Source of the DNA: a virus
Virus record (IMG/VR): IMGVR_UViG_3300042868_002925
Span: 1-25,648 of that record
DNA: 25,648 bases
Direction: 5' to 3' (one strand)
A program made the translations under genes and the position numbers. How positions within the stretch are numbered: position 1 is the stretch's first letter; every line of letters starts with the position of its first letter. Positions 4,388 through 25,176 of this stretch are shown here, one piece after another. The notes beneath the pieces were generated by a model. That model searched no databases, had not been told where the DNA came from, and was given only the letters and a program-made list of their open reading frames with translations.

Positions 4388-4870
4388 ATGAAACTAATAA
4401 ATCTAATTCCACTAAAAGAAATGGATAATCCTTGTTGGAAAGGATATGAAATGGTGGGTACTAAAAATAAAAATGGTAAAGAAGTACCAAATTGTGTTCC
4501 TATTAAAGAAGAAGCAACTGATAATGAATATGATGAATTGGATGTTGAGCCTGAAGAAATTGAAGATTTTATTGAATTTTTAAAAGCATATAAAAATACT
4601 TTATCTGAAGCAAATTGCAATTGTGTGTATGAAGCAGAATATCAGGGTAGAGAAGTTCAGTTGGGTAAACCAATGCAAGGTGATATTAAAAAATTCAAAG
4701 TATATGTAAAGAACCCAGCAGGTAATGTTGTTAAGGTAAACTTTGGACAAAAGGGAATGAAAATTAGAAAATCAAATCCTGCGGCTAGAAAATCATTTAG
4801 AGCTAGAATGAATTGTGACAACCCCGGACCAAGACACAAAGCAAACTATTGGAGTTGTAGAAAATGGTAA
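4388..4870 (+). CDS. Cys-rich phage protein, possible head-associated
   Basis: 160 residues with six cysteines (16, 36, 77, 79, 143, 157). The N-terminal NPCWKGYEMVG ... VPNCVP (14-38) and the C-terminal RKSFRARMNCDNPGP ... YWSCRKW (134-160) are signatures I know from many phage proteins of unknown function. An acidic linker (40-62) and a helical segment separate them. The C-terminal half (82-160) is basic and beta-rich, suggesting nucleic-acid or capsid contact. The first residues, MKLINLIPLKE, resemble the start of the 9916 gene product and end in an L-x-E site. This may be a prohead-targeting peptide. It lies between terminase and portal behind its own promoter-like motif. Function is unknown. 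Confidence 0.75.
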   Translation: MKLINLIPLKEMDNPCWKGYEMVGTKNKNGKEVPNCVPIKEEATDNEYDELDVEPEEIEDFIEFLKAYKNTLSEANCNCVYEAEYQGREVQLGKPMQGDIKKFKVYVKNPAGNVVKVNFGQKGMKIRKSNPAARKSFRARMNCDNPGPRHKANYWSCRKW

Positions 4871-4926: not shown

Positions 4927-6651
4927 ATGGCAGATAAAACATTTTTCGGTAGGTTACAAAAATTATTTTCAACTAAAACTATCGTTCGTAGAACCTCTAA
5001 GGGGTTAAGGGTAATTGATACAGATGAGTATCAAAGTTTATCAACAAATTTAATTGATAGATACAGTCGTATGAAAGTACCACAATATAGTGGTGGTTTG
5101 ATGGAATCAGCGATGGCATATCAGCAAGTTCGTATTGATTTATTTAGAGATTATGATGGAATGGATAACGACCCTATCATATCATCGGCATTAAATATAT
5201 ACGCTGATGAATCAACAGTTAAGAACGAATTGGGTGATGTATTAAAAATCAATTGTCCAAACGAAAACACAAAAGAAATACTTCATAATTTATTTTATGA
5301 TATTCTTAATATAGAATTTAATTTATGGCCTTGGACTAGAAACTTAGTTAAGTATGGCGATTTCTTTTTACAATTAGAAATTTCACCTGAATTGGGTATC
5401 ATAAATACAACGCCGTTATCAGTATATGAAACGAGTAGAGTAGAAGGATTTGACCAAGAAAATCCACAAAGAGTAAAATTTGTGTATTCGCCATTCCAAA
5501 ACCCAAACAGCGCATTATCAACGGCATCTGCTAAGAAAGAATATGAGAATTATGAAATAGCTCACTTCCGATTATATTCAGATTCAAACTTCCTACCTTA
5601 TGGTAAATCTATGATTGAAGGTGGTAGAAGAGTTTGGAAACAATTATCATTAATGGAAGATGCGATGTTAATCCATCGTATTATGAGAGCACCTGAAAAG
5701 AGAATCTTTAAAGTGGATGTTGGTAATATTCCACCAACCGAAGTTGATAACTACATGCAAAAAATTATCAACTCATCTAAGAAAGTTCCATTTTTGGATG
5801 CAAATACCGGTGAGTACAATTTAAAATACAACATACAAAACCTTATTGAAGATTATTATATGCCAGTTCGTGGTAGTGATAATGGTACTTCAATTGATAC
5901 TCTAAAAGGTTTGGAATATAATATGATTGATGATATTAACTACTTAAAAGGTAAGTTGATGGCAGCATTGCATATTCCGAAAGTATATTTAGGATATGAA
6001 GAAGATATTAGTGGTAAGGCTACTTTAGCAGGACAAGATATTCGTTTTGCAAAAACAATCGAAAGAATCCAAAAGGTATTAGTATCAGAATTGACTAAGA
6101 TAGCAATCGTTCACTTATATGCACAGGGATTAGATAGTGGTGATGATTTAGATTTCCAATTAGAATTAACTATTCCATCTAAAATCTATGAGCAAGAGAA
6201 GGTAGAATTATATACATCTAAGATTGCATTGATTACTCAAATGCAACAAACCAAAATGTTCTCTAAAAAATGGATGTATGATGCTATTATGAATATGACT
6301 CCTGAAGAGCAAGATGATTTGACTGTTGATGTGATTGAAGATACTAAACAAATGTTCCGATTAACATCAATTGAAACTCAAGGTGTTGACCCGGCAAAAG
6401 AAACCGGAACGGATGAAACAACTAATGTAGAAGAGGAAATTCAAAAAATAAAAAATGAATTAGATGAAGAAGGAAAAGTTGGTAGACCAGCAGACCCTAT
6501 TAGATATGGTAAGGATGACCACCATTTAGGTAGAGACCCGTTAGGTATTAAGAGTTTAAAACAAAAAGCTCAAAGAGAAAACAAAGAGATATTCAAAGAT
6601 ATGCTGGGTAATAAAAAGACTATTTTGATGGAAGATTTGGATAAAAAGTAA
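4927..6651 (+). CDS. gp20: Portal vertex protein (T4 gp20-like)
   Basis: 574 residues (T4 gp20 is 524). Portal proteins form the dodecameric ring at one head vertex through which terminase pumps DNA and onto which the neck assembles. The order of segments fits gp20: a variable basic N-terminus, then DGMDNDPIISSALNIYADE (about 78-96), the WPWTRNLVKYGDFFLQLEI region, and RVWKQLSLMEDAMLIHRIMRA (the wing/stem start). Then come LKGLEYNMIDDINYLKGKL and a long helix with GQDIRFAKTIERIQKVL, followed by a charged C-terminal tail (about 480-574). The call also rests on context: terminase upstream, protease, scaffold and capsid downstream. The leader is A-rich without Shine-Dalgarno. Confidence 0.93.
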   Translation: MADKTFFGRLQKLFSTKTIVRRTSKGLRVIDTDEYQSLSTNLIDRYSRMKVPQYSGGLMESAMAYQQVRIDLFRDYDGMDNDPIISSALNIYADESTVKNELGDVLKINCPNENTKEILHNLFYDILNIEFNLWPWTRNLVKYGDFFLQLEISPELGIINTTPLSVYETSRVEGFDQENPQRVKFVYSPFQNPNSALSTASAKKEYENYEIAHFRLYSDSNFLPYGKSMIEGGRRVWKQLSLMEDAMLIHRIMRAPEKRIFKVDVGNIPPTEVDNYMQKIINSSKKVPFLDANTGEYNLKYNIQNLIEDYYMPVRGSDNGTSIDTLKGLEYNMIDDINYLKGKLMAALHIPKVYLGYEEDISGKATLAGQDIRFAKTIERIQKVLVSELTKIAIVHLYAQGLDSGDDLDFQLELTIPSKIYEQEKVELYTSKIALITQMQQTKMFSKKWMYDAIMNMTPEEQDDLTVDVIEDTKQMFRLTSIETQGVDPAKETGTDETTNVEEEIQKIKNELDEEGKVGRPADPIRYGKDDHHLGRDPLGIKSLKQKAQRENKEIFKDMLGNKKTILMEDLDKK

Positions 6652-7817: not shown

Positions 7818-8585
7818 ATGCCAGCACAATCTAAAGCACAACAACGATTTATGGGTATGGTTCACGCTGCACAAAAGGGTGATATGGAAAATCCATCACC
7901 TGAAGTAGAAAAAGCAGCAGATTCAATGTCCGATAAAGATGCTAAAGATTTTGCATCAACTTCACATAAAGGACTTCCTGATAAAATAAAAGAAATGGTG
8001 TTGGCTGAATTACGTTCAGTAAGAGCTATCCAAACTGATTACGCTAAAACATTAGATGCTATTCAGCAAAACTTAGAAGGATATAAAAAATCTAAAGGAA
8101 CTCCAAACGAAAATCAATATGTACAAAAACTTAAAGCACTAACTGCACAAAAGAAAAAACTTTCCGCAGAATTAGATGCAAAGGTTAGTGGTATGTACAA
8201 AGATGCAGAATTGAAAGTAGATGAAATGAATACTACTGGCAATGTGCAAGGATATGGTACACCGCACGCATTTGGTAAAGGTGAGGATGAAAAAACTAAA
8301 GGTAAAAGACAAGCTGATTTGACTGGATATAGTGTAGTTAAAGAAAATCGTTGGTTAGAACTAAAAAAAGATGAATCAACTGCACAATCTAAAATTGGTA
8401 GAGGTATATCTAATATCAATAAACAATTAAAAGAAATGGAAACTTTTCTTAATTGGTATGGGAAAATTAAGAACGAAAGTGGGGTAGATAATAAAAGTTA
8501 TTGGAAAAGAACAAATAGTCATATTTATAGTATAAAGGAACGATTACTAAAATTAGACCAAAAAATAAGACAAATTTCAGAATAA
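7818..8585 (+). CDS. DUF3008-type N-terminus with long coiled-coil extension
   Basis: 255 residues. Residues 1-57 (QQRFMGMVHAAQKG ... SPEVEKAADSM ... DAKDFASTSHKGLPDKIK) match the small family DUF3008, usually a stand-alone protein of about 60-70 residues found in phages and bacteria. Here it is fused to about 200 residues of charged helix with coiled-coil character (60-125 and 175-255). A Gly/Pro-containing hinge (GYGTPHAFGKG) lies near residues 148-158. The function of DUF3008 is not known to me. Its location in the head cluster suggests a virion or core protein. Its stop overlaps the next start in TAATG. Confidence 0.75.
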   Translation: MPAQSKAQQRFMGMVHAAQKGDMENPSPEVEKAADSMSDKDAKDFASTSHKGLPDKIKEMVLAELRSVRAIQTDYAKTLDAIQQNLEGYKKSKGTPNENQYVQKLKALTAQKKKLSAELDAKVSGMYKDAELKVDEMNTTGNVQGYGTPHAFGKGEDEKTKGKRQADLTGYSVVKENRWLELKKDESTAQSKIGRGISNINKQLKEMETFLNWYGKIKNESGVDNKSYWKRTNSHIYSIKERLLKLDQKIRQISE

Positions 8586-8899
8586 TGAAAATATCTCAAT
8601 TGAAAGAGCTTGTTAAGCAAGTAGTTAAAGAAGAAAACGATTATCAACAATTATTCAAACATATGTTGGATAAGACTGGTAAATCTATTACTAATATGTC
8701 CGATGATGAAAAGAAGAAATTCTTTAACGCCGTAGACACTGCTTACAAAGCAAAATCTGAAGGAAAATTGAGAGGATATAACGAAGCTGATTTAACCGCA
8801 GGCCAAAAGAAAATAGATACCGATGGCGATGGTGAAATCGAAGGTTCGGATTTAGCAGCATTAAGAGCTAAAAACGAAGGGGTTCAAAAAAAAAAGTAG
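8585..8899 (+). CDS. EF-hand-like protein (zero-frame product)
   Basis: 104 residues. The N-terminal amphipathic helix MKISQLKELVKQVVKEE resembles short head-targeting leaders. The segment MSDDEKKKFFNAVDTAYKAK (38-57) is followed by a canonical calcium loop at residues 78-89 (Asp78, Asp80, Asp82, Gly83, Ile85, Asp89) and the exit helix DLAALRAK. This is a dockerin/EF-hand-type half-site, so Ca2+ binding is likely. The frame ends inside an A10 run with the codons AAA AAA AAG then TAG. The -1 frame continues with a membrane helix and 139 further codons. The 104-residue form may therefore be only one of two products, or the gene may be broken. It starts by one-base overlap with the previous stop. 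Confidence 0.75.
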   Translation: MKISQLKELVKQVVKEENDYQQLFKHMLDKTGKSITNMSDDEKKKFFNAVDTAYKAKSEGKLRGYNEADLTAGQKKIDTDGDGEIEGSDLAALRAKNEGVQKKK

Positions 8900-8940
8900 T
8901 AACTGAAGGTGTAATTGAAGGAATACTTGCAACTATCACC
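8876..8940 (+). promoter_or_regulatory. Candidate programmed -1 frameshift signal (A AAA AAG)
   Basis: Ten adenines (8886-8895) followed by G create the heptamer A AAA AAG at 8890-8896 in the correct zero frame, the E. coli dnaX type, followed at once by TAG at 8897. A purine-rich GAAGGGG (8876-8882) lies 7 bases upstream, where dnaX has a stimulatory Shine-Dalgarno-like element. A weak stem can form downstream: 8915-8920 with 8926-8932 (one bulged G), extended by GGTG 8908-8911 with CACC 8937-8940. The spacer is longer than usual. Transcriptional slippage on A10 or a homopolymer sequencing error would look the same. Confidence 0.5.
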
Positions 8941-9315
8941 ATAGCTATATTAGGTAAAATATTCATTTATTTTATTTATGAATTGGCTAAAAAAGCAGGA
9001 AGCTACATAAATGGTAACAACGAATATAAAAAAGCAGTTACCAAAATATTAGAGTCAATATCTAATAACAAACAAGCTATGAACGATATAGCTAAATTAT
9101 TGGATAGTAACGATGGAATAAATGACAGAGTTACTGACAAGATTGTAAGAATGGGATATGTACAAACCCAAATTACGAAAATGGTGGATAGTACAAATGG
9201 TAAATTGGATGAAACCGAACTTAAAAATCATTTAAAAACCGCATTGCTAAACGCGTGGGAAGATAAAGGATTAACGGGAAGAGCAATAGAAAAGGTAAAA
9301 AAAGATATAAAATAA
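8896..9315 (+). CDS. -1 frame extension: membrane helix plus helical domain
   Basis: In the -1 frame relative to the EF-hand gene, the reading is open from 8872 and encodes 139 codons after the slip site. First comes VVTEGVIEGILATITIAILG and KIFIYFIYELAKKAG, a hydrophobic transmembrane-length segment. Then come about 110 charged helical residues (DIAKLLDSNDGINDRVTDKI ... AWEDKGLTGRAIEKVKKDIK). No ATG or GTG lies between 8896 and 8983. The only conventional start is TTG at 8983, which would discard the membrane segment. Frameshifted translation from 8585 would give a protein of about 243 residues, which I favour. Alternatives are a TTG-initiated soluble 110-residue protein or a recently broken gene. 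It abuts the protease start. Confidence 0.55.
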   Translation, partial: VVTEGVIEGILATITIAILGKIFIYFIYELAKKAGSYINGNNEYKKAVTKILESISNNKQAMNDIAKLLDSNDGINDRVTDKIVRMGYVQTQITKMVDSTNGKLDETELKNHLKTALLNAWEDKGLTGRAIEKVKKDIK

Positions 9316-9906
9316 ATGAATAAAGGATTATTAATAGAGACCCATTTGTTTGAAGCTAAGCTTGTAGAGCAAGATAACGGAACTTATTTAGTTAAAGGTA
9401 TCTTACAAAGAGCAGGCGCACCGAATCAAAACCATAGAAGATATCCAAAAGAAATCTTAGAGAGGGAGTGTAAGAAGTACGAACAACTTATCAAAGAAAG
9501 AAGAGCATTGGGTGAATTAGACCATCCCGATTCTCCTGTAATTAATTTGAAGAACGTTTCGCATAACATCAGAGAAATTGGATGGGATGGTGACGATGTA
9601 GTAGGTATAGTAGAAATCCTATCAACTCCATCGGGTAACATCCTTAGAGAATTATTAAAAAACAATATTCGTTTAGGAATTTCATCGAGAGGATTGGGTT
9701 CAGTAAAAGAACTAAGTGATGGTACTTTAATGGTTCAGGAAGACTTTGAATTAGTTGGATGGGATTTTGTATCAAACCCATCTACGCATGGAGCATTTAT
9801 GGCACCAATGAACGAATCCAAACAATGGGCAAAAGTTGCAGAGGAATGTGGTAAGTATTGTCGCTCACAAGATTTGATGAGAGAAATTATAATTGAATTA
9901 AATTAA
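9316..9906 (+). CDS. gp21: Prohead maturation protease (T4 gp21-like)
   Basis: 196 residues (T4 gp21 is 212). A serine protease of the herpesvirus-assemblin-like fold that cleaves scaffold, core and capsid proteins inside the prohead. It carries NHRRYPKEILERE (39-51), the catalytic-His segment ALGELDHPDS (His70) and the catalytic-Ser segment GISSRGLGS (121-129, Ser123/Ser124). The following WDFVSNPSTHGAFM (149-162) is also typical of the family. N-terminal L-x-E triplets (LIE, LFE followed by Ala) could be self-cleavage sites. Its position before scaffold and capsid matches T4, but five small genes, including bS21, are inserted between protease and scaffold. Confidence 0.95.
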   Translation: MNKGLLIETHLFEAKLVEQDNGTYLVKGILQRAGAPNQNHRRYPKEILERECKKYEQLIKERRALGELDHPDSPVINLKNVSHNIREIGWDGDDVVGIVEILSTPSGNILRELLKNNIRLGISSRGLGSVKELSDGTLMVQEDFELVGWDFVSNPSTHGAFMAPMNESKQWAKVAEECGKYCRSQDLMREIIIELN

Positions 9907-14823: not shown

Positions 14824-16044
14824 ATGTCTTTAAATTTAAAATGGCCCGGCAGTGGTTCAGCAATTGTAGCATTTTCCGGCTCAACAACATCATCAATGGG
14901 ATTAACTCCTTTTGGTATATATGATTTAGACCGTGATTTTTATACAGATGCACCAAAAACCGCTGGATGGTGTGCAAAACGATTGGGTTATCCAATTGTT
15001 GATGTTGAAATGATTGATGAACAATTTTACGCTTGTTTTGAAGAATCCGTATCGGAATATTCAGCACAGGTAAATCAATTCAACCTTAGAAACAACTTAG
15101 ATATTTTAAAAGGACAACCAAAAACCGCTAGAGATAACTATTCTCAAACGCTTGTTGATGGTTCGTTTTTACCAACTACAATTAGAATGTCCCAACAATA
15201 CGGTACATTGGCTGGCGTTGGTGGTAACACATCCCAAAAGAAAGCATATATTGAATTAACTCCAGGTCAACAAAAGTATAATTTGATGAGTGCATCGGTT
15301 GATATTGAAACTTCATCATCATTTGCAACCATATTTCAAGGACCATCCACGGTAGATGTAGTAAAAGTGTTCTACGAAGCAACTCCGGCAATTCAAAGAT
15401 TCTTTGACCCGTATTCGGTTGGTGGACAGGGTACGTTGAACTTAATGGATGAAATGGGATTTGGCTCATATTCTCCGGCAGCACAATTTTTACTAATGCC
15501 TCTATATGAGGATATGTTAAGAATACAAGCTATTGAATTTAATGACCATATTAGAAAATCACATCATAGTTTTAATATAGTTAACAATATAATTGAAGTA
15601 TTCCCCGTACCAAGAGCTGGACACGGACCTACTCGATTGTATTTTGATTATATGAGTAGAGATGAATTTGAACATAATTCACAAACCATTCAGTCGGACT
15701 CACTTTCTGATTACTCTGATATTCCATATGATTTCATACAATATAGTAAAGTTAATGATGTGGGTAAACAATGGATTAGAAAGTACACATTAGCATTAGC
15801 AAAGGAACTCTTAGGAGCGATTAGAGAAAAATATAGTTCAGTACCTATACCAGATGGAGAAGTATCCTTAGATGGAGCAGCATTGAGAGCAGAAGCGCAA
15901 GTGGAGAAGGATATGTTAGTAACTCAACTTAGAGAAAACTTAGAAGAGTTAAGTAGAAAGAATGTGATGGAAAATAAGGCACACGAATCAGACCATCAGC
16001 AAGAAATGTTGAGAAAAGTTCCTTTAAAAATATATGTAGGATAA
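14824..16044 (+). CDS. gp13: Neck protein (T4 gp13-like)
   Basis: 406 residues from ATG 14824. The frame extends left to 14761, but that part overlaps the terminator and promoter, so it is not coding. Near the N-terminus AKRLGYPIVDVEMIDEQFYACFEESVSEYS corresponds to the gp13 segment in which RLG-PI-VE is followed by a helix. Near the C-terminus QWIRKYTLALAKELLGAIREKYSSVPIPDGEVSLDGAALRAEAQVE (about 310-355) matches the gp13 helix-loop-helix ending. T4 gp13 has 309 residues, so there is an extra central beta-rich region (about 120-230). gp13 binds the portal after packaging and, with gp14, makes the neck and prepares tail joining. Confidence 0.82.
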   Translation: MSLNLKWPGSGSAIVAFSGSTTSSMGLTPFGIYDLDRDFYTDAPKTAGWCAKRLGYPIVDVEMIDEQFYACFEESVSEYSAQVNQFNLRNNLDILKGQPKTARDNYSQTLVDGSFLPTTIRMSQQYGTLAGVGGNTSQKKAYIELTPGQQKYNLMSASVDIETSSSFATIFQGPSTVDVVKVFYEATPAIQRFFDPYSVGGQGTLNLMDEMGFGSYSPAAQFLLMPLYEDMLRIQAIEFNDHIRKSHHSFNIVNNIIEVFPVPRAGHGPTRLYFDYMSRDEFEHNSQTIQSDSLSDYSDIPYDFIQYSKVNDVGKQWIRKYTLALAKELLGAIREKYSSVPIPDGEVSLDGAALRAEAQVEKDMLVTQLRENLEELSRKNVMENKAHESDHQQEMLRKVPLKIYVG

Positions 16045-19008: not shown

Positions 19009-21426
19009 ATGGCACAAATCATTAAACACAGGCGTGGTAGTTTAGAAGCCCTATCAGCAGTAACCTCATCCTTACAAAAAGGTGAATTAGTAATTGCTTC
19101 AGGCTCATCGAATTTATCGGTAACTAACGGAGCATCGATTGTATTCGCAGTTCCGGAAAACGGACAAGTACAAGCGGTAAATAGATTTTTAGTAGGCAAT
19201 TCCGCACCAAATACGTTTGCAGCTGGAACTTATAATGGAATGGTAAATGGAGTTCCTTACTACGCAAGTGGTAGTTCTACATTATATTTATTAGGAGAAG
19301 GAGCAAATTCAATTCCAAACTTAGTAGGTAACATTCAATCATTCAGTTCGTCTGTTGCAACCTCAATAAATGCATTAAGTGCATCAATTGGTGGTGGTAG
19401 TATTGGTAATTCTGTAACAGCATTAAATACATTTACAGGTTCGCAAGAATCTAAGAATAGTACATTAGCAACTTATACAGGTTCGGTAAATACTAGATTA
19501 ACAAATTTAGAAAGTACTTCAGCTAGTGTAAACACATCTGTTGCGGCATTAAATACTTCATCAGCTTCACAGCAAGTTAGTATTGATGCTTTAAACACAT
19601 TTAGTGGTTCTGAAAATACTAAAGCATCTACATTAGCAACTTATACAGGTTCGGTTAATAGTAGATTAGACCAATTATCAACCGCAAGTGGAAGTGCTAT
19701 TACAAGATTGACCGCTTTAGAAGTTGAAACGGCTAATTTGGAAACATTTAGTGGTTCTCAATTGACTAAAGATGCAACATTAGCAACTATTACGGGTTCT
19801 TTGATTACATCCGCTTCAAACGCAGTAATAGCAAATACACAATTAAACTCATATACATCCTCATTAAGAACTGCATTTACTGCAAGTGGTGCAAATGTAA
19901 CATTTAGTGGAGATGTAACTATTCCTGGTAACTTAACAGTAGCAGGAACAACAACCGCAGTAAACTCTACTACGATTCAATTGGGAGATAACATAATTGA
20001 ATTAAATGGTACAGGTGTTGCAAATGGTGGTTTATTAGTTAAAGACCCAACTGCACCAAATACGGTAAGTGGTTCATTACTTTGGGATTCTACAAATGAC
20101 TACTGGAAAGCAGGAGCATCAGGAGCTGAAAGTAAATTATTAAGAGCAGTTGGTGATTCGGTAGTTACGGGTTCATCTCAAATTACTTTACAATCCACAA
20201 CAGGATTTACTGCGTTTGATACTGCATTGGCAACCATAACAGGTTCGTTAATAACATCGGCAAGTGCAGCAGCAATTGCAAACGCAAATCAAAATACATT
20301 TACATCTTCTGCATTAGTTAGATTCACAAATTTAGAAACAACTTCTGCTAGTGTTAATACTTCGATAGCAAACTTAAATAGTTTCACATCATCGAATAAC
20401 TCTACAACTTTATTAAACGCATTTACTGCATCAGCTGAAAGTAGATTTACAGCATTAGCAACTTACACTGGTTCAGTTGATACACGATTTACAACATTAG
20501 CAGCTGTAACGGCATCTTTGATTGTTGATGCAAATAATTTAGAAACATTTAGTGCATCGGTTCTTACTCAATTAGGTACATTAGCAACTTATACGGGTTC
20601 AGTTAGTACAAGATTAACAGAAGTTGGAGTAGTGACTGGTTCATTGATAGCATCCGCATCGGCTGCTAAAACTACAAATGATTCACAAGGAGTTTCAATA
20701 ACTAACTTAAATGCATCATCCGCATCTCAACAAATTAGTATTGATGCATTGAATTCATTCAGTAGTTCTGAAAATACTAAATCATCTACATTAGGAACTT
20801 ATACGGGTTCAGTTGATACAAGATTTACAACATTAGGAACTTTAACGGGTTCGAACGCAATCAGATTAACTAATTTAGAAACAACTTCTGCAAGTGTTAA
20901 TACGAGTGTTTCAAATATCAATACTTTCACTTCTTCTGCAAATAGTAGAATTACGGTATTAGAAGGTACAGGCACAATACAAGGTTTAGGTACTTCTAAT
21001 AACGTAACTTTCGCAAAAGTAACAACGACTGGAGATGTAATAGTTGGTGGAGATTTAGTAGTACAAGGTAATACTGTAACATTAAATACCGCTCAATTAG
21101 TAGTTGAGGATAAATTGATTACATTAGCAAGTGGTTCTACTTCAAACGCAACCGCAGATGGTGCAGGTATCGAAGTAGCAGGAACTACTGCAAGTTTCAA
21201 ATACAATGGAACAACCAATCAATTTAGTTCAAGCGTAGCACTCGCATCAAATATAACCGGTTCTATCAACTTAGGTTCGGCAGCAGGAAGTTCTAAGAGA
21301 GTAGCATTCCGAAACACAAATGGTAATTTGGATTTAGTTCCAACTGCAAGTGTATCGGGGGATTTACTACAATGGGATGGTACTGATTTTGTAATGAGTA
21401 ACACAATCGATGGTGGTTCATTCTAA
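19009..21426 (+). CDS. Long repetitive tail fibre protein
   Basis: 805 residues of Ser/Thr/Asn-rich repeats. The N-terminal domain (about 1-110: KHRRGSLEALSAVTSSLQKG, then GELVIASG) resembles phage fibre attachment domains. Next comes a long run of units such as LATYTGSV, TNLESTSASVNTS, ALNTFSGS and LEVETANLETFSGSQ, consistent with a trimeric hydroxyl-rich coiled coil. A beta module, GNLTVAGTTTAVNSTTIQLG then DNIIELNGTG and SGSLLWDSTNDYWKAG, sits near 305-375. A similar one, GDLVVQGNTVTLNTAQLVVE then DKLITLASG, sits near 680-705. The C-terminus is VMSNTIDGGSF. No S74 chaperone or catalytic domain is seen. It probably forms a fibre shaft used in adsorption. It shares long near-identical DNA tracts with the fibre gene at 22225. 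Confidence 0.85.
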   Translation: MAQIIKHRRGSLEALSAVTSSLQKGELVIASGSSNLSVTNGASIVFAVPENGQVQAVNRFLVGNSAPNTFAAGTYNGMVNGVPYYASGSSTLYLLGEGANSIPNLVGNIQSFSSSVATSINALSASIGGGSIGNSVTALNTFTGSQESKNSTLATYTGSVNTRLTNLESTSASVNTSVAALNTSSASQQVSIDALNTFSGSENTKASTLATYTGSVNSRLDQLSTASGSAITRLTALEVETANLETFSGSQLTKDATLATITGSLITSASNAVIANTQLNSYTSSLRTAFTASGANVTFSGDVTIPGNLTVAGTTTAVNSTTIQLGDNIIELNGTGVANGGLLVKDPTAPNTVSGSLLWDSTNDYWKAGASGAESKLLRAVGDSVVTGSSQITLQSTTGFTAFDTALATITGSLITSASAAAIANANQNTFTSSALVRFTNLETTSASVNTSIANLNSFTSSNNSTTLLNAFTASAESRFTALATYTGSVDTRFTTLAAVTASLIVDANNLETFSASVLTQLGTLATYTGSVSTRLTEVGVVTGSLIASASAAKTTNDSQGVSITNLNASSASQQISIDALNSFSSSENTKSSTLGTYTGSVDTRFTTLGTLTGSNAIRLTNLETTSASVNTSVSNINTFTSSANSRITVLEGTGTIQGLGTSNNVTFAKVTTTGDVIVGGDLVVQGNTVTLNTAQLVVEDKLITLASGSTSNATADGAGIEVAGTTASFKYNGTTNQFSSSVALASNITGSINLGSAAGSSKRVAFRNTNGNLDLVPTASVSGDLLQWDGTDFVMSNTIDGGSF
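19717..19763 (+). repeat. 47-bp tract identical to 23650-23696
   Basis: This stretch, coding LEVETANLETFSGSQ, is identical base for base to 23650-23696 in the second long fibre gene, while flanking sequence differs. A diverged third relative occurs near 24474-24518. Identity at wobble positions points to recent exchange or gene conversion rather than protein selection alone. Confidence 0.8.
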
Positions 21427-21433
21427 ATATTAA

Positions 21434-21462
21434 GCCCCCTCTAAAGGAGGGGGATTTTTTTT
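21434..21462 (+). terminator. GC-rich intrinsic terminator after long fibre gene
   Basis: Stem CCCCCTC (21435-21441) with GAGGGGG (21447-21453), 5-nt loop, then a run of eight T. It is the most GC-rich hairpin in the window. The next gene starts 32 bp later with no recognisable TATATTTATA motif between. Confidence 0.9.
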
Positions 21463-21494
21463 AAATTATTAATGAATAAAAAACACCAATCATA

Positions 21495-22133
21495 ATGGCT
21501 CAAAAAATATTACAAAAAAGGTCGCTAACAGCAGGGAAAGTTCCTGACACTGGCTCCCTATTAGTAGGTGAGTTGGGTATAAACGTTTACGATGGTAAAG
21601 TTTATATACACAAATCCGGTTCAAGCCAATCGATTGAAACTTTAGTTAGTACAAATTCGACTACAACCGGTTCTATTACCTTATTGGGTACGGGTTCATT
21701 TGGTGAGTTAAACGTTACAAACGATGTTAACGTTGGCAGTGATGTATTCGTAACGGGGGATATCGTTGGAAATGGTGATATTGATATCGCTGGGGCAGTA
21801 TCCGCATCAATTGTTTCCGCATCCGCATTTATTGGTTTTGGTGGTGGATTGACAGGAATTACAGCATCAATGAGACCGGATGATTTTGATTTCAATTCAG
21901 AACCATTCGCAGGAACAATAGGATATATACAAGGTAGTGGTTCACTTTACAAAGTAGCAACCACTTCAACGGCAGTAGAATTCAGATACAACGATGAGAT
22001 TAAAGGAACTTTTACAACTACAAATGGATTTAGTGGTTCACTTTACGGAATTGGCGATGTACTTGCATTTAGTGGTTCGGTAGCAAATAGATTAGCATCT
22101 TTGGAAGCTGGTTCAGATGCAGGAGAATTCTAA
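21495..22133 (+). CDS. Short fibre protein, paralogue of the next fibre's N-terminus
   Basis: 212 residues. Residues 1-100 are clearly paralogous to the start of the protein encoded at 22225: KRS/GKVP-TGSL/GE/N-YDGK, then SIE, TTGSITL, TGSFGELNVT, GDIDI. This GE-x-x-N-YDGK domain is a usual fibre N-terminal virion-attachment or cap domain. The rest is unique: GFGGGLTGITASMRPDDFDF, then beta strands, and the C-terminus GSDAGEF. It may be a stand-alone short fibre, or a hinge that pairs with its longer paralogue. It is enclosed by terminators on both sides. Confidence 0.8.
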   Translation: MAQKILQKRSLTAGKVPDTGSLLVGELGINVYDGKVYIHKSGSSQSIETLVSTNSTTTGSITLLGTGSFGELNVTNDVNVGSDVFVTGDIVGNGDIDIAGAVSASIVSASAFIGFGGGLTGITASMRPDDFDFNSEPFAGTIGYIQGSGSLYKVATTSTAVEFRYNDEIKGTFTTTNGFSGSLYGIGDVLAFSGSVANRLASLEAGSDAGEF

Positions 22134-22151
22134 TTACGATAATAAAAATAT

Positions 22152-22163
22152 TATATATTTATA
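22152..22163 (+). promoter_or_regulatory. TATATATTTATA motif abutting a terminator
   Basis: The recurrent motif lies directly against the hairpin that follows (22164), as at 11207-11251. It cannot drive the next gene efficiently unless the terminator is leaky. The motif may serve another role, or the real promoter may be in 22191-22224, which holds TTACATAA (22192-22199). Confidence 0.3.
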
Positions 22164-22190
22164 AAGGTACTACATAGTACCTTTTTTTTT
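22164..22190 (+). terminator. Intrinsic terminator after short fibre gene
   Basis: Stem AAGGTACT (22164-22171) with AGTACCTT (22176-22183), 4-nt loop ACAT, continued T tract to 22190. It separates the two paralogous fibre genes. Confidence 0.87.
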
Positions 22191-22224
22191 GTTACATAAC
22201 TCAAATAAATTATAGTCCATAAAT

Positions 22225-25176
22225 ATGGCACAAAGTATTATACTAAAGCGCTCAGCGCTACCTGGAAAAGTCCCAACAACCGGTTCATTAAATATCGGTG
22301 AAATAGCAGTAAATACCTATGATGGTAAACTATTTATAAAGCGTTCGGGAAATTTAGATTCGATTGAAGGAATTGTAGTTACCAACTCAATAACTACGGG
22401 GTCTATAACGTTAACTCGAACGGGTTCTTTTGGGGAATTAGTAGTAACACAAGATGCCAATGTTGCTAGAGATTTATATGTAACAAATGATATCATTGGA
22501 GCAGGTGATATTGATATAACGGGAGATATCACAGGTAGTTCCGCATTACTAAGTGGTAGTTTAATATTAAGTGGTTCTCAAACCATTACGAATAATTTGA
22601 CTGTTTTAGGAACAGTTAATGCCAGACAATTCAATATTTCCGTAATATCATCTTCGGTATTATTTCAAAGTGGTTCAACTAAATTTGGAGATACTTCAGA
22701 TGATACACACTCATTTACTGGTTCGGTATCAATTTCTGGTTCATTTTTATTGAATGGACAAGAAGTAGGTGGTGGAACAACATCGGGTTCATTTACCGGC
22801 TCATTTACCGGAGATGGTAGTGGATTGAGGGGAGTAGTTAGTGATGATTTACCAATAGATGGTTGGGATTATAATTCAAATAGTTCTGCATCAATTAGTG
22901 AATTTAATAATGAGTCCAGAAAGTATTTAATAGATTTTCAATGGGAAGAGGAAGTTGGTACACCGATTGGATTTAAAACATTTATATCAAACGTAACGGG
23001 TAGTTCACAAATTGTTCCAACCGAAGCTGGTATTAAATTTATAGTAGGAAATCAACAAGTTGCATTGGTAGGACCAAATGGTATAGAATCGGTGCCACCT
23101 GCAGGAACTATAAGTGGTTCATCTCAATTGACAAGTTCTTTTGATAGTAGATATGTTTTGGAAAGTGAAACGGGCTCATTACAAACTTCAATAACAAATT
23201 TGAATACATTTACTGCAAGTGTAACTACGGCATCGATTGTAACTTCAATAACAAATTTGAATACATTTACTGCATCGGTTTCGACCGCAAGTTTGGTAAC
23301 TTCTATTTCAAATTTAAATACTACAACAGCATCTTTAAATATATCAGTAACCAACTTAAATACGTTCAGTTCATCTGAAAATAGTAAGGCAGTTACATTA
23401 GCAACTTATACAGGTTCAGTTGAAAGTAGATTTAGTACATTGGCAACATTGACTGGTTCTAATTCAATTAGATTAACAAACTTAGAAACAACCTCCGGAA
23501 GTGTAAATACACGATTAACTGAAATAGGTGTAGTTACGGGTTCATTAATCTCATCCGCATCTGCGGCTAAAACAACAAATGATTCGCAAGGAGTTTCAAT
23601 AACAAATTTAAATACTCTCACTGCATCCGCATTAACAAGATTAACGGCATTAGAAGTTGAAACGGCTAATTTGGAAACATTTAGTGGTTCTCAATTAAGT
23701 AAAGATTCAACATTAGGAACTTATACGGGTTCAAATGATACAAAATGGTCTACATTAGGTTCACTAAGTAGTTCATTTGCAAGAACAAATTCGACAAACG
23801 TATTTAGTGGTGACCAAACAATCACAGGTTCATTATTTGTAACTTCAAACCTAATTGTACAAGGTTCTTCATCAATTCAAAATATTAGTTCTTCTACATT
23901 AAACATTGGAACTAACATTATAACTGTTGCAGTAAATCAACCATCGGTTAGATTTGGTGGAATTTCAGTAATAGATAGTGGTTCAGCAGGAGGTTCTGGT
24001 TCATTCTTATATGATTCTGTACACGATGAATTTATATTTCTTCACAAAGGAAACGGAACAAATGTAACATCATCTCACTTCGTATTAGGGCCAGAAACTT
24101 ATGATAATTTAGGTAATGAAACATATCTGACAAACAATAGAATACCAAAAGGAACAGGAAAAGAACATCTTAATGATTCTCAAATTTCAGATGATGGAAC
24201 AACTGTAAGTATTGGAGGAGCATTGACCGTAACAGGCAATATTACAGGTCCAATTAGAGCAACAAATGGTGTAGTAAGTGGTTCTTCTCAAATAACATAT
24301 GCAAGTATTTCTTCTATCCCATCGGGAATAGTAAGTGGTTCTTCACAAGTAATTGGAATATTAAGTTCATTGAACACATATACAGGTTCAAATGATACAA
24401 CTAATACTACACAAAATAGTAGATTAGACCAATTATCAACTGCAAGTGGTTCGGCGATTACAAGATTATCAGCATTAGAAGTTGAAACATCTAATTTAGA
24501 AACATTTACATCTTCGATTAATACAACGATTAAAACGAGATTGAACGCAGAAACGGTAATTAGTGGTTCATCGCAAGTAACATTATCATCTACAACGGGA
24601 TATGGTTCAGTACTAAATCAAGCAGTATTAACATCATCATCACCTACATTTGCAGGTGCAACATTAACAGGAACAATTACATCCAATGTTACAAACAACT
24701 ATGGATTAGTTTTAAATAGAGCAGCGGTAACTAATTATAATGGTATAAGCTTACAAACTGCAGCAGTGGCTCAATGGTATGTTGGAATGAGAGAAAATCT
24801 TTCATCAAACAATTATATTATATATAATGAGAGTGGAACAGATGCGTTGACTATTTCTAAATCAAATAGTAATGCAACATTTGCAGGAACAATAACTGAA
24901 AACTCATCATTACGATATAAAGAAAATATTGAACCAATAAAATATGGTTTAGATAAAGTTCTTCAAATGAGAGGAGTTACTTACGACAAAAAAAATACCG
25001 GAGTAAAAGAAATAGGTGTAATTGCAGAAGAAATTTATGATGTTTTACCTGAAGTAGTTTTAAAAAATGAAGAGGGTGAAATAGATTCGGTTTCGTATGG
25101 TAGAATTACCGCAGTTTTAATAGAAGCTATAAAAGATTTAAAGAAAGAAATTGAAGATTTAAAAGCAAATAGATAA
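22225..25176 (+). CDS. Long tail fibre with C-terminal S74 self-cleaving chaperone
   Basis: 983 residues. N-terminal attachment domain (1-105) is paralogous to the short fibre upstream. Then come beta modules with SGSSQI/V/L boundary motifs and a hydroxyl-rich coiled-coil repeat region (about 330-500: LATYTGSV, TNLNTFTAS, LEVETANLETFSGSQ). More beta modules follow (GSLFVTSNLIVQGSSSIQNI). The last 90 residues are an intramolecular chaperone of the peptidase S74 type: SSLRYKENIEPIKYGLDKVL, then IGVIAEEIYDVLPEVV, and LIEAIKDLKKEIEDL as the final helix. Ser894 and Lys899 fit the S-x-x-R-x-K cleavage dyad. The released part would be residues 894-983 after trimer folding. This is probably the main receptor-binding fibre. 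Its stop overlaps the next start in TAATG. Confidence 0.92.
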   Translation: MAQSIILKRSALPGKVPTTGSLNIGEIAVNTYDGKLFIKRSGNLDSIEGIVVTNSITTGSITLTRTGSFGELVVTQDANVARDLYVTNDIIGAGDIDITGDITGSSALLSGSLILSGSQTITNNLTVLGTVNARQFNISVISSSVLFQSGSTKFGDTSDDTHSFTGSVSISGSFLLNGQEVGGGTTSGSFTGSFTGDGSGLRGVVSDDLPIDGWDYNSNSSASISEFNNESRKYLIDFQWEEEVGTPIGFKTFISNVTGSSQIVPTEAGIKFIVGNQQVALVGPNGIESVPPAGTISGSSQLTSSFDSRYVLESETGSLQTSITNLNTFTASVTTASIVTSITNLNTFTASVSTASLVTSISNLNTTTASLNISVTNLNTFSSSENSKAVTLATYTGSVESRFSTLATLTGSNSIRLTNLETTSGSVNTRLTEIGVVTGSLISSASAAKTTNDSQGVSITNLNTLTASALTRLTALEVETANLETFSGSQLSKDSTLGTYTGSNDTKWSTLGSLSSSFARTNSTNVFSGDQTITGSLFVTSNLIVQGSSSIQNISSSTLNIGTNIITVAVNQPSVRFGGISVIDSGSAGGSGSFLYDSVHDEFIFLHKGNGTNVTSSHFVLGPETYDNLGNETYLTNNRIPKGTGKEHLNDSQISDDGTTVSIGGALTVTGNITGPIRATNGVVSGSSQITYASISSIPSGIVSGSSQVIGILSSLNTYTGSNDTTNTTQNSRLDQLSTASGSAITRLSALEVETSNLETFTSSINTTIKTRLNAETVISGSSQVTLSSTTGYGSVLNQAVLTSSSPTFAGATLTGTITSNVTNNYGLVLNRAAVTNYNGISLQTAAVAQWYVGMRENLSSNNYIIYNESGTDALTISKSNSNATFAGTITENSSLRYKENIEPIKYGLDKVLQMRGVTYDKKNTGVKEIGVIAEEIYDVLPEVVLKNEEGEIDSVSYGRITAVLIEAIKDLKKEIEDLKANR
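23650..23696 (+). repeat. 47-bp tract identical to 19717-19763
   Basis: This is the second copy of the fibre tract described at 19717. It lies in the coiled-coil repeat part of the S74 fibre gene. A second pair of related segments, coding RLDQLSTASGSAITRL, lies near 19660-19712 and 24417-24470 with only scattered differences. Confidence 0.8.

Follow-up and report, generated by a model that had tools for sequence, protein, structure and literature searches.

A candidate programmed -1 recoding site at a conserved adenine run in a head-cluster gene of T4-like phages

Introduction

A small gene in the head cluster of a T4-like phage ends in a run of adenines and a stop codon, and the -1 frame stays open across that stop and encodes a hydrophobic helix. 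This arrangement raises the question of whether the two frames are joined by slippage on the run into one longer protein and, if they are, whether the ribosome or the RNA polymerase slips. We followed this question in one stretch of viral DNA, the window (25,648 nucleotides, IMG/VR record IMGVR_UViG_3300042868_002925), and in its relatives. For the relatives, IMG/VR was scanned with both parts of the gene and with alignments of them as queries, and removal of duplicates left 79 distinct junctions.

Results

The junction in the window

The upstream ORF, 8585-8899, closes with the codons CAA AAA AAA AAG TAG (Table 1). The preliminary description had reported an ORF that ends in an in-frame A AAA AAG heptamer followed directly by TAG, and this is what is seen at 8890-8899. 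The -1 frame is open from the A-run as far as a TAA at 9313-9315, giving 139 codons when counted from 8896. That this frame has no ATG or GTG start of its own was borne out for the part that matters: the window sequence contains neither codon in the -1 frame upstream of the hydrophobic helix, and the earliest start-like codon of the frame is a TTG at 8983, downstream of the helix. A fusion of the two parts would have 104 + 139 = 243 aa, in agreement with the length of about 243 residues proposed earlier. Two forms of the product, one soluble and one membrane-anchored, would follow from this sequence. The A10 is the only run of at least 10 A or T in the window and it recurs in 79 homologous junctions, so that the arrangement is not due to chance.

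Table 1. Features of the recoded gene and its surroundings, in window coordinates
Feature	Position	Strand	Evidence or remark
Upstream zero-frame ORF, 104 aa, terminating in QKKK and the stop	8585..8899	+	homologues, alignment A2
Single EF-hand-like loop DTDGDGEIEGSD, residues 78-89	8816..8851	+	alignment A2; Pfam EF-hand_5 E 0.015
Slippery homopolymer A10	8886..8895	+	A9-A12 in 79/79 distinct junctions
Heptamer A AAA AAG, zero frame	8890..8896	+	identical final 7 nt before the stop in 62/79
Zero-frame stop TAG, immediate	8897..8899	+	every relative has TAG or TAA here
-1 frame extension domain, 139 aa, without a usable start ahead of the membrane helix	8896..9315	+	
Downstream stem-loop 1	8908..8940	+	distance from the heptamer to its start 11 nt in the window, 8 nt in the larger subfamily
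Putative membrane helix GILATITIAILGKIFIYFI	8920..8976	+	19-residue Kyte-Doolittle mean 2.15
Downstream stem-loop 2, inner stem 8951-8978	8942..8989	+	94% of its pairs retained within the window's subfamily
Next gene, prohead core protease (Peptidase_S77, T4 gp21-like)	9316..9906	+	E 1.8e-29

Conservation of the junction

The 79 distinct junctions come from many separate metagenomes and represent a large group of uncultured T4-like phages. In every one of them, 9 to 12 adenines (A9 in 2, A10 in 45, A11 in 31 and A12 in 1) precede an extension encoded in the -1 frame. The zero-frame stop, TAA or TAG, comes at once in 77, with G, GG, C or nothing in between, and lies 4 nt past the run in both A9 junctions. 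The codons before the stop are CAA-AAA-AAA-AAG in 28 junctions, AAA-AAA-AAA-AAG in 24, GAA-AAA-AAA-AAG in 10, AAA-AAA-AAA-AGG in 8, CAA-AAA-AAA-AAA in 6, AAA-AAA-AAG-AAT in 2 and CAA-AAA-AAA-AAC in 1. A slippery heptamer (A AAA AAG, A AAA AAA or A AAA AAC) thus stands at the very end of the ORF in 69 of the 79. In 8 junctions A AAA AGG adjoins the stop, with A AAA AAA ahead of it, so that the slip would be needed one codon earlier; in the 2 others, A AAA AAG stands one codon before the last codon.

No G-ending codon is used at the start of the run, even though 30% of the upstream Lys codons are AAG and 12% of the Gln codons are CAG. The +1 frame is closed within 2 codons in every fused junction examined for it. 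No start codon in the extension frame is conserved ahead of the helix in the fused set, and none occurs upstream of the run. In 491 kb of loci with the fused arrangement, there was no further A or T run of at least 10, and there were only ten runs of 9.

Run and stop persist in spite of considerable divergence on both sides of the junction. Among relatives, identity to the window is as low as 37-50% for the extension and about 49% for the upstream protein, whose length varies between 102 and 229 aa, with central inserts or an extra domain at its end. Comparison with homologues had been proposed earlier as the way to recognize recoding, and the result was decisive: A-run, stop and both frames are all kept in the 79 distinct junctions.

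One further sequence departs from the usual pattern. In L180, which is close to L033, a deletion around the A-run of the upstream gene removes part of the EF-like loop and leaves the upstream ORF and the extension in an unusual frame relation. This could be a broken allele or an assembly artefact.

Homologues without the fusion

Fifteen distinct homologues of the upstream gene lack the extension, and none of them has an A-run of at least 8 near the stop; L049 was excluded from this set because its contig stops at the run. These homologues mostly terminate in KLK, NKK or KNK, and their protease gene begins at the stop codon.

The reverse case is also found. In L030, L064 and L066, the extension is a separate gene with its own overlapping ATG and no A-run. 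These standalone extensions open with a short N-terminal segment, MIKLKSILIEV or MIKLKSLLIEV. L056, which is fused (A11), is nested in the standalone clade of the extension tree (100/95), and therefore the fused and standalone arrangements have interchanged.

RNA structure downstream of the run

A signal with three dnaX-like parts had been proposed for this site. Two of them, the heptamer and the downstream stem-loop, held across the family, but the third, a Shine-Dalgarno-like GAAGGGG upstream of the heptamer, did not. Its sequence differs in the relatives, which have GAATCGG, GAAGTGG, GAAGTTA, AACGAAG, AAAATGG and others at this position, and it is not conserved.

The stem-loop is present, but its earlier description as weak is apt only for the window taken alone, where the hairpin is modest (z -1.99 with synonymous shuffles; with dinucleotide shuffles, z -0.33 for 64 nt and -2.81 for 94 nt). 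As dinucleotide shuffles gave negative values elsewhere in the extension too, we used protein-preserving shuffles, with other genes as controls. Against these, structure past the run had a mean z of -2.87 ± 0.20 family-wide (n = 40), while the same shuffles gave -0.1 to -0.9 for the upstream ORF and 0.1 to -0.7 for the protease gene. The hairpin is maintained through the choice among synonymous codons. At the level of the family, the structure is the second strongest feature of the site. The hairpin is absent from the three standalone copies of the extension domain (z -0.4 to -0.7). The region upstream of the run is slightly structured (z -0.88), and deeper in the extension (offset 59) structure also exceeds the background (z -2.2).

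In -1 frameshifting, the stimulatory structure usually lies 5-9 nt past the heptamer. In the larger subfamily the inner stem lies at 8 nt, and 91.9% of the cells of the helix are paired, compared with 40-61% in slid controls. Synonymous Leu and Lys codons covary in this stem (CTN with AAG in 20 cases, TTR with AAA in 14, mixed in 4), a count that includes shared ancestry. In the window's own subfamily, where the hairpin starts 11 nt downstream, the pairs showed no covariation above shuffles. L056 keeps its A11 and lacks the hairpin (z about -0.1). The consensus from RNAalifold for the ungapped alignment was only weak; the conclusion on structure is based on the synonymous shuffles and on the counts for the named helix. 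No family matching the RNA was found in Rfam.

The two protein parts

The upstream protein consists of a helical N-terminal part and one loop of the EF-hand/dockerin type. The loop matches the pattern DxDxDGxIxxx(D/E), with invariant ligand positions: D78, D80, D82, G83, E84, I85, E86 and D89 do not vary among the 21 aligned homologues of A2. Pfam gave no match above its gathering score for this protein (EF-hand_5, 15.2 bits against a cut-off of 25.9), and the pairing of EF-hands is not seen, as there is one loop only. What remains of the earlier assignment to the EF-hand proteins is thus an invariant loop, but a single one, below every Pfam gathering score. Matches to MlaC were below the cut-off and were regarded as chance.

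In L261 and L265, the EF-like loop is wholly missing, and the A9G, the stop 4 nt on and the -1 extension are kept. The recoding is therefore independent of the calcium-loop sequence.

The hydrophobic segment of the extension has a 19-residue Kyte-Doolittle mean between 1.84 and 2.39 across all 79 relatives. Judging from this composition, the helix probably inserts in the membrane; insertion is likely rather than certain because a near-invariant Lys lies in the middle of the helix. AlphaFold2 modelled the extension with a mean pLDDT of 85.9 as eight helices and nothing else. Pfam, PHROGs and a Foldseek search of the PDB assigned it to no family, and it matched no known PDB fold; an unannotated viral model, A0A6J5M8K1 (204 aa), matches it with 34% identity. 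Both parts are under purifying selection, with pN/pS of about 0.27 for the upstream part and 0.50 for the extension, values for which pS is near saturation.

Genomic context and distribution

The recoded gene is flanked by the portal gene (4927-6651) and the Peptidase_S77 gene (9316-9906), the position of the prohead-core genes in T4. There, the core genes for gp67 and gp68 lie between those for the portal gp20 and the protease gp21. By the major capsid protein, the nearest cultured phages are Flavobacterium phage immuto and Microcystis phage Mel-JY01 (about 54% each), and this relationship leads us to guess a Bacteroidota host. The gene is absent from the head region of immuto, and that of Mel-JY01 yielded no relative. 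Among cultured phages, tblastn against 50,697 phage records gave no match to the upstream protein or to three variants of the extension, and a scan of genome contigs with the extension alignment gave none either.

The A10-A15 runs of the huge phage LR756508 were considered as similar sites and rejected, as they lie inside or between ordinary ORFs and show no frameshift arrangement. This 484-kb uncultured phage (L237, LR756508.1) has A15, A12 and A10 at 15826, 23445 and 28380, within 35 kb of its head region and in both coding and intergenic DNA; the window's relatives are without such runs elsewhere. Further along the window, 19009-25176 encodes large, tail-fibre-like proteins with abundant repeated segments of the type S/T-x-x-N-T-x-T-G-S.

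Discussion

Which process joins the two frames

The sequences compared here make it almost certain that slippage on the A-run causes the recoding. Most translation would terminate at the TAG or TAA at or near the end of the run and give the short protein with its one EF-hand-like loop. A fraction would slip back one base on the 9-12 adenines and continue in the -1 frame, giving a fusion with a helical domain and a hydrophobic helix that probably inserts in the membrane. The tRNA-Lys would re-pair on A AAA AAR(C), consecutive AAA codons would cause pausing, and the downstream hairpin would stimulate the slip; slippage of RNA polymerase on the same run may add to the product.

Whether the polymerase could account for everything has to be weighed seriously. 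It would add one A (or drop two), and normal translation of the altered mRNA would give the fusion. At least 9 adenines are present whatever the codon register, A10GG among them, so that homopolymer length seems to vary less than the heptamer does; the first codon of the run also never ends in G. In bacteria, the RNA:DNA hybrid spans 9-10 bp, and the polymerase slips efficiently in vivo on 9 A (PMC5009743). Closure of the +1 frame within 2 codons would mop up other slippage products, and in L056 the run persists where the hairpin does not. Given the lower limit of 9 on the run, polymerase slippage may contribute. Its length does not discriminate, however, since ribosomes likewise pause and slide on consecutive AAA codons (PMC4363877), and a long run therefore fits both mechanisms. 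Transcriptional slippage alone also leaves the conserved downstream hairpin unexplained. This hairpin points to the ribosome, because it is still untranscribed while RNA polymerase sits on the run. Stimulators of transcriptional slippage sit upstream, in the nascent RNA, and the region before the run is only slightly structured. We regard transcriptional slippage as the sole cause as unlikely, and the ribosome as probably responsible for most of the slip. With good though incomplete confidence, we thus read this T4-like head-cluster gene as carrying a programmed -1 recoding site that would work mainly by ribosomal slip.

Explanations without slippage fare much worse. The extension might be a protein of its own, made by internal initiation or by coupling after the stop, as L030, L064 and L066 do encode it as a separate gene with an overlapping ATG. 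The window has no start ahead of the helix, however, nor is one conserved in the relatives or present upstream of the run; the ATG of TAAATGA cannot start the extension because it is in the zero frame. The A-run would also be left unexplained, which makes this reading very improbable. It is still harder to believe that the run is retained just for a Lys-rich peptide, with the hairpin serving another purpose such as mRNA stability. The short form does end in KKK or KKR, except at three junctions ending in KKN, but AAG never stands at the start of the run in spite of its share of the upstream Lys codons, and the homologues without the extension mostly have other endings and no run. A missing A in the assembly had been named as a competing explanation. 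Homopolymers are error-prone and a near relative, L180, carries a frame-changing deletion, but the two frames stand in one and the same relation, with several stop contexts, at 79 distinct junctions from many metagenomes. Purifying selection acts on both parts, and the homologues lacking the extension also lack the run. From these natural controls and the lack of other long runs, we consider assembly error or a decayed gene to be excluded for practical purposes, and there is no good alternative to slippage.

A possible role in the prohead

Because the gene adjoins the prohead protease gene, a head-core protein in two forms is suggested. By analogy with T4, we tentatively propose that the short form is a core protein and that the long form is either a membrane-anchored minority or a membrane protein carried in the head and delivered to the next host. 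According to a review of the T4 head (PMC9958956), the head starts to assemble on a portal ring at the inner membrane, and some T4 internal proteins are directed into the core by a short N-terminal sequence. The long form would borrow the N-terminal segment of the short protein. Such targeting fits the gene arrangement, because the standalone extension has an N-terminal segment of its own and the fused one uses the upstream N-terminus. A more elaborate and rather improbable version is a dual-mode site, in which the A9-A12 run serves both polymerase slippage and hairpin-stimulated frameshifting, together setting the ratio of soluble to anchored prohead-core protein, with a few anchored copies helping to start head assembly at the host membrane.

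Short L/I-x-E segments occur at the ORF starts at window positions 4388, 9316 and 10164 and in the standalone extension of L066. Examples are MIRLKDLLCEG, MNKGLLIETHLFEA and MIKLKSILIEV, which are reminiscent of the T4 core-targeting peptides cut by the protease.

If the long form is present in proheads, it would give a handle on the start of T4-like head assembly at the membrane. The locus adds a strongly conserved recoded gene to the T4-like head-core cluster, where recoding is otherwise undescribed in the literature searched. Gene callers that work in a single frame would break this gene in two or overlook its membrane domain. The natural controls, the gene without extension and run and the free extension without run, make an unusually clean comparative case, and the joint conservation of a run of 9-12 A and a hairpin makes the question of ribosome versus polymerase directly testable.

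Comparison with known systems

Frameshifts in phage structural genes, the A AAA AAG heptamer and slippage on poly-A are already known (PMC5009743). In the open-access literature, we found no slippage or frameshifting combined with an EF-hand-like phage gene, a prohead-core gene or a membrane-helix extension; this recoded gene, with its very clean signal, seems to be new.

The zero-frame A AAA AAG, the downstream stem-loop and products that share an N-terminus are common to this site, E. coli dnaX and IS3-type elements. The present site differs from these in having no conserved Shine-Dalgarno sequence, 9-12 A in place of A6G, and a stop within 4 nt of the run. In E. coli dnaX, the slip yields the shorter product, whereas here it would yield the longer one; a comparable reversed arrangement is mentioned only as a candidate, for Chlorobium dnaX (PMC5009743). 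With the transcriptional slippage of Thermus thermophilus dnaX (9 T) and Citrobacter rodentium tssM, the site shares a homopolymer of at least 9 and nearby stops in the other frames. Unlike them, it has a conserved hairpin downstream of the run.

In position, the gene resembles those for T4 gp67 and gp68, which have the same place in the head cluster and also encode small, charged, helical proteins; the likeness is one of position and general protein character. The available parts of the T4 head review (PMC9958956) describe neither a membrane domain nor recoding for gp67 and gp68. Flavobacterium phage immuto has the same order of head genes but lacks both parts of the recoded gene.

Several phage structural genes yield a minority product extended at the C-terminus, at a set ratio (PMC5009743); T4 itself has no G-T frameshift (PMC5009743). 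Lambda G/GT, T7 and T3 gp10A/10B, Lactobacillus phage A2 and Listeria phage PSA make such an extended minority product, as predicted here. Their extensions are Ig-like or chaperone domains, whereas the extension here is a membrane-helix domain, and its gene lies beside that for a T4-like prohead protease.
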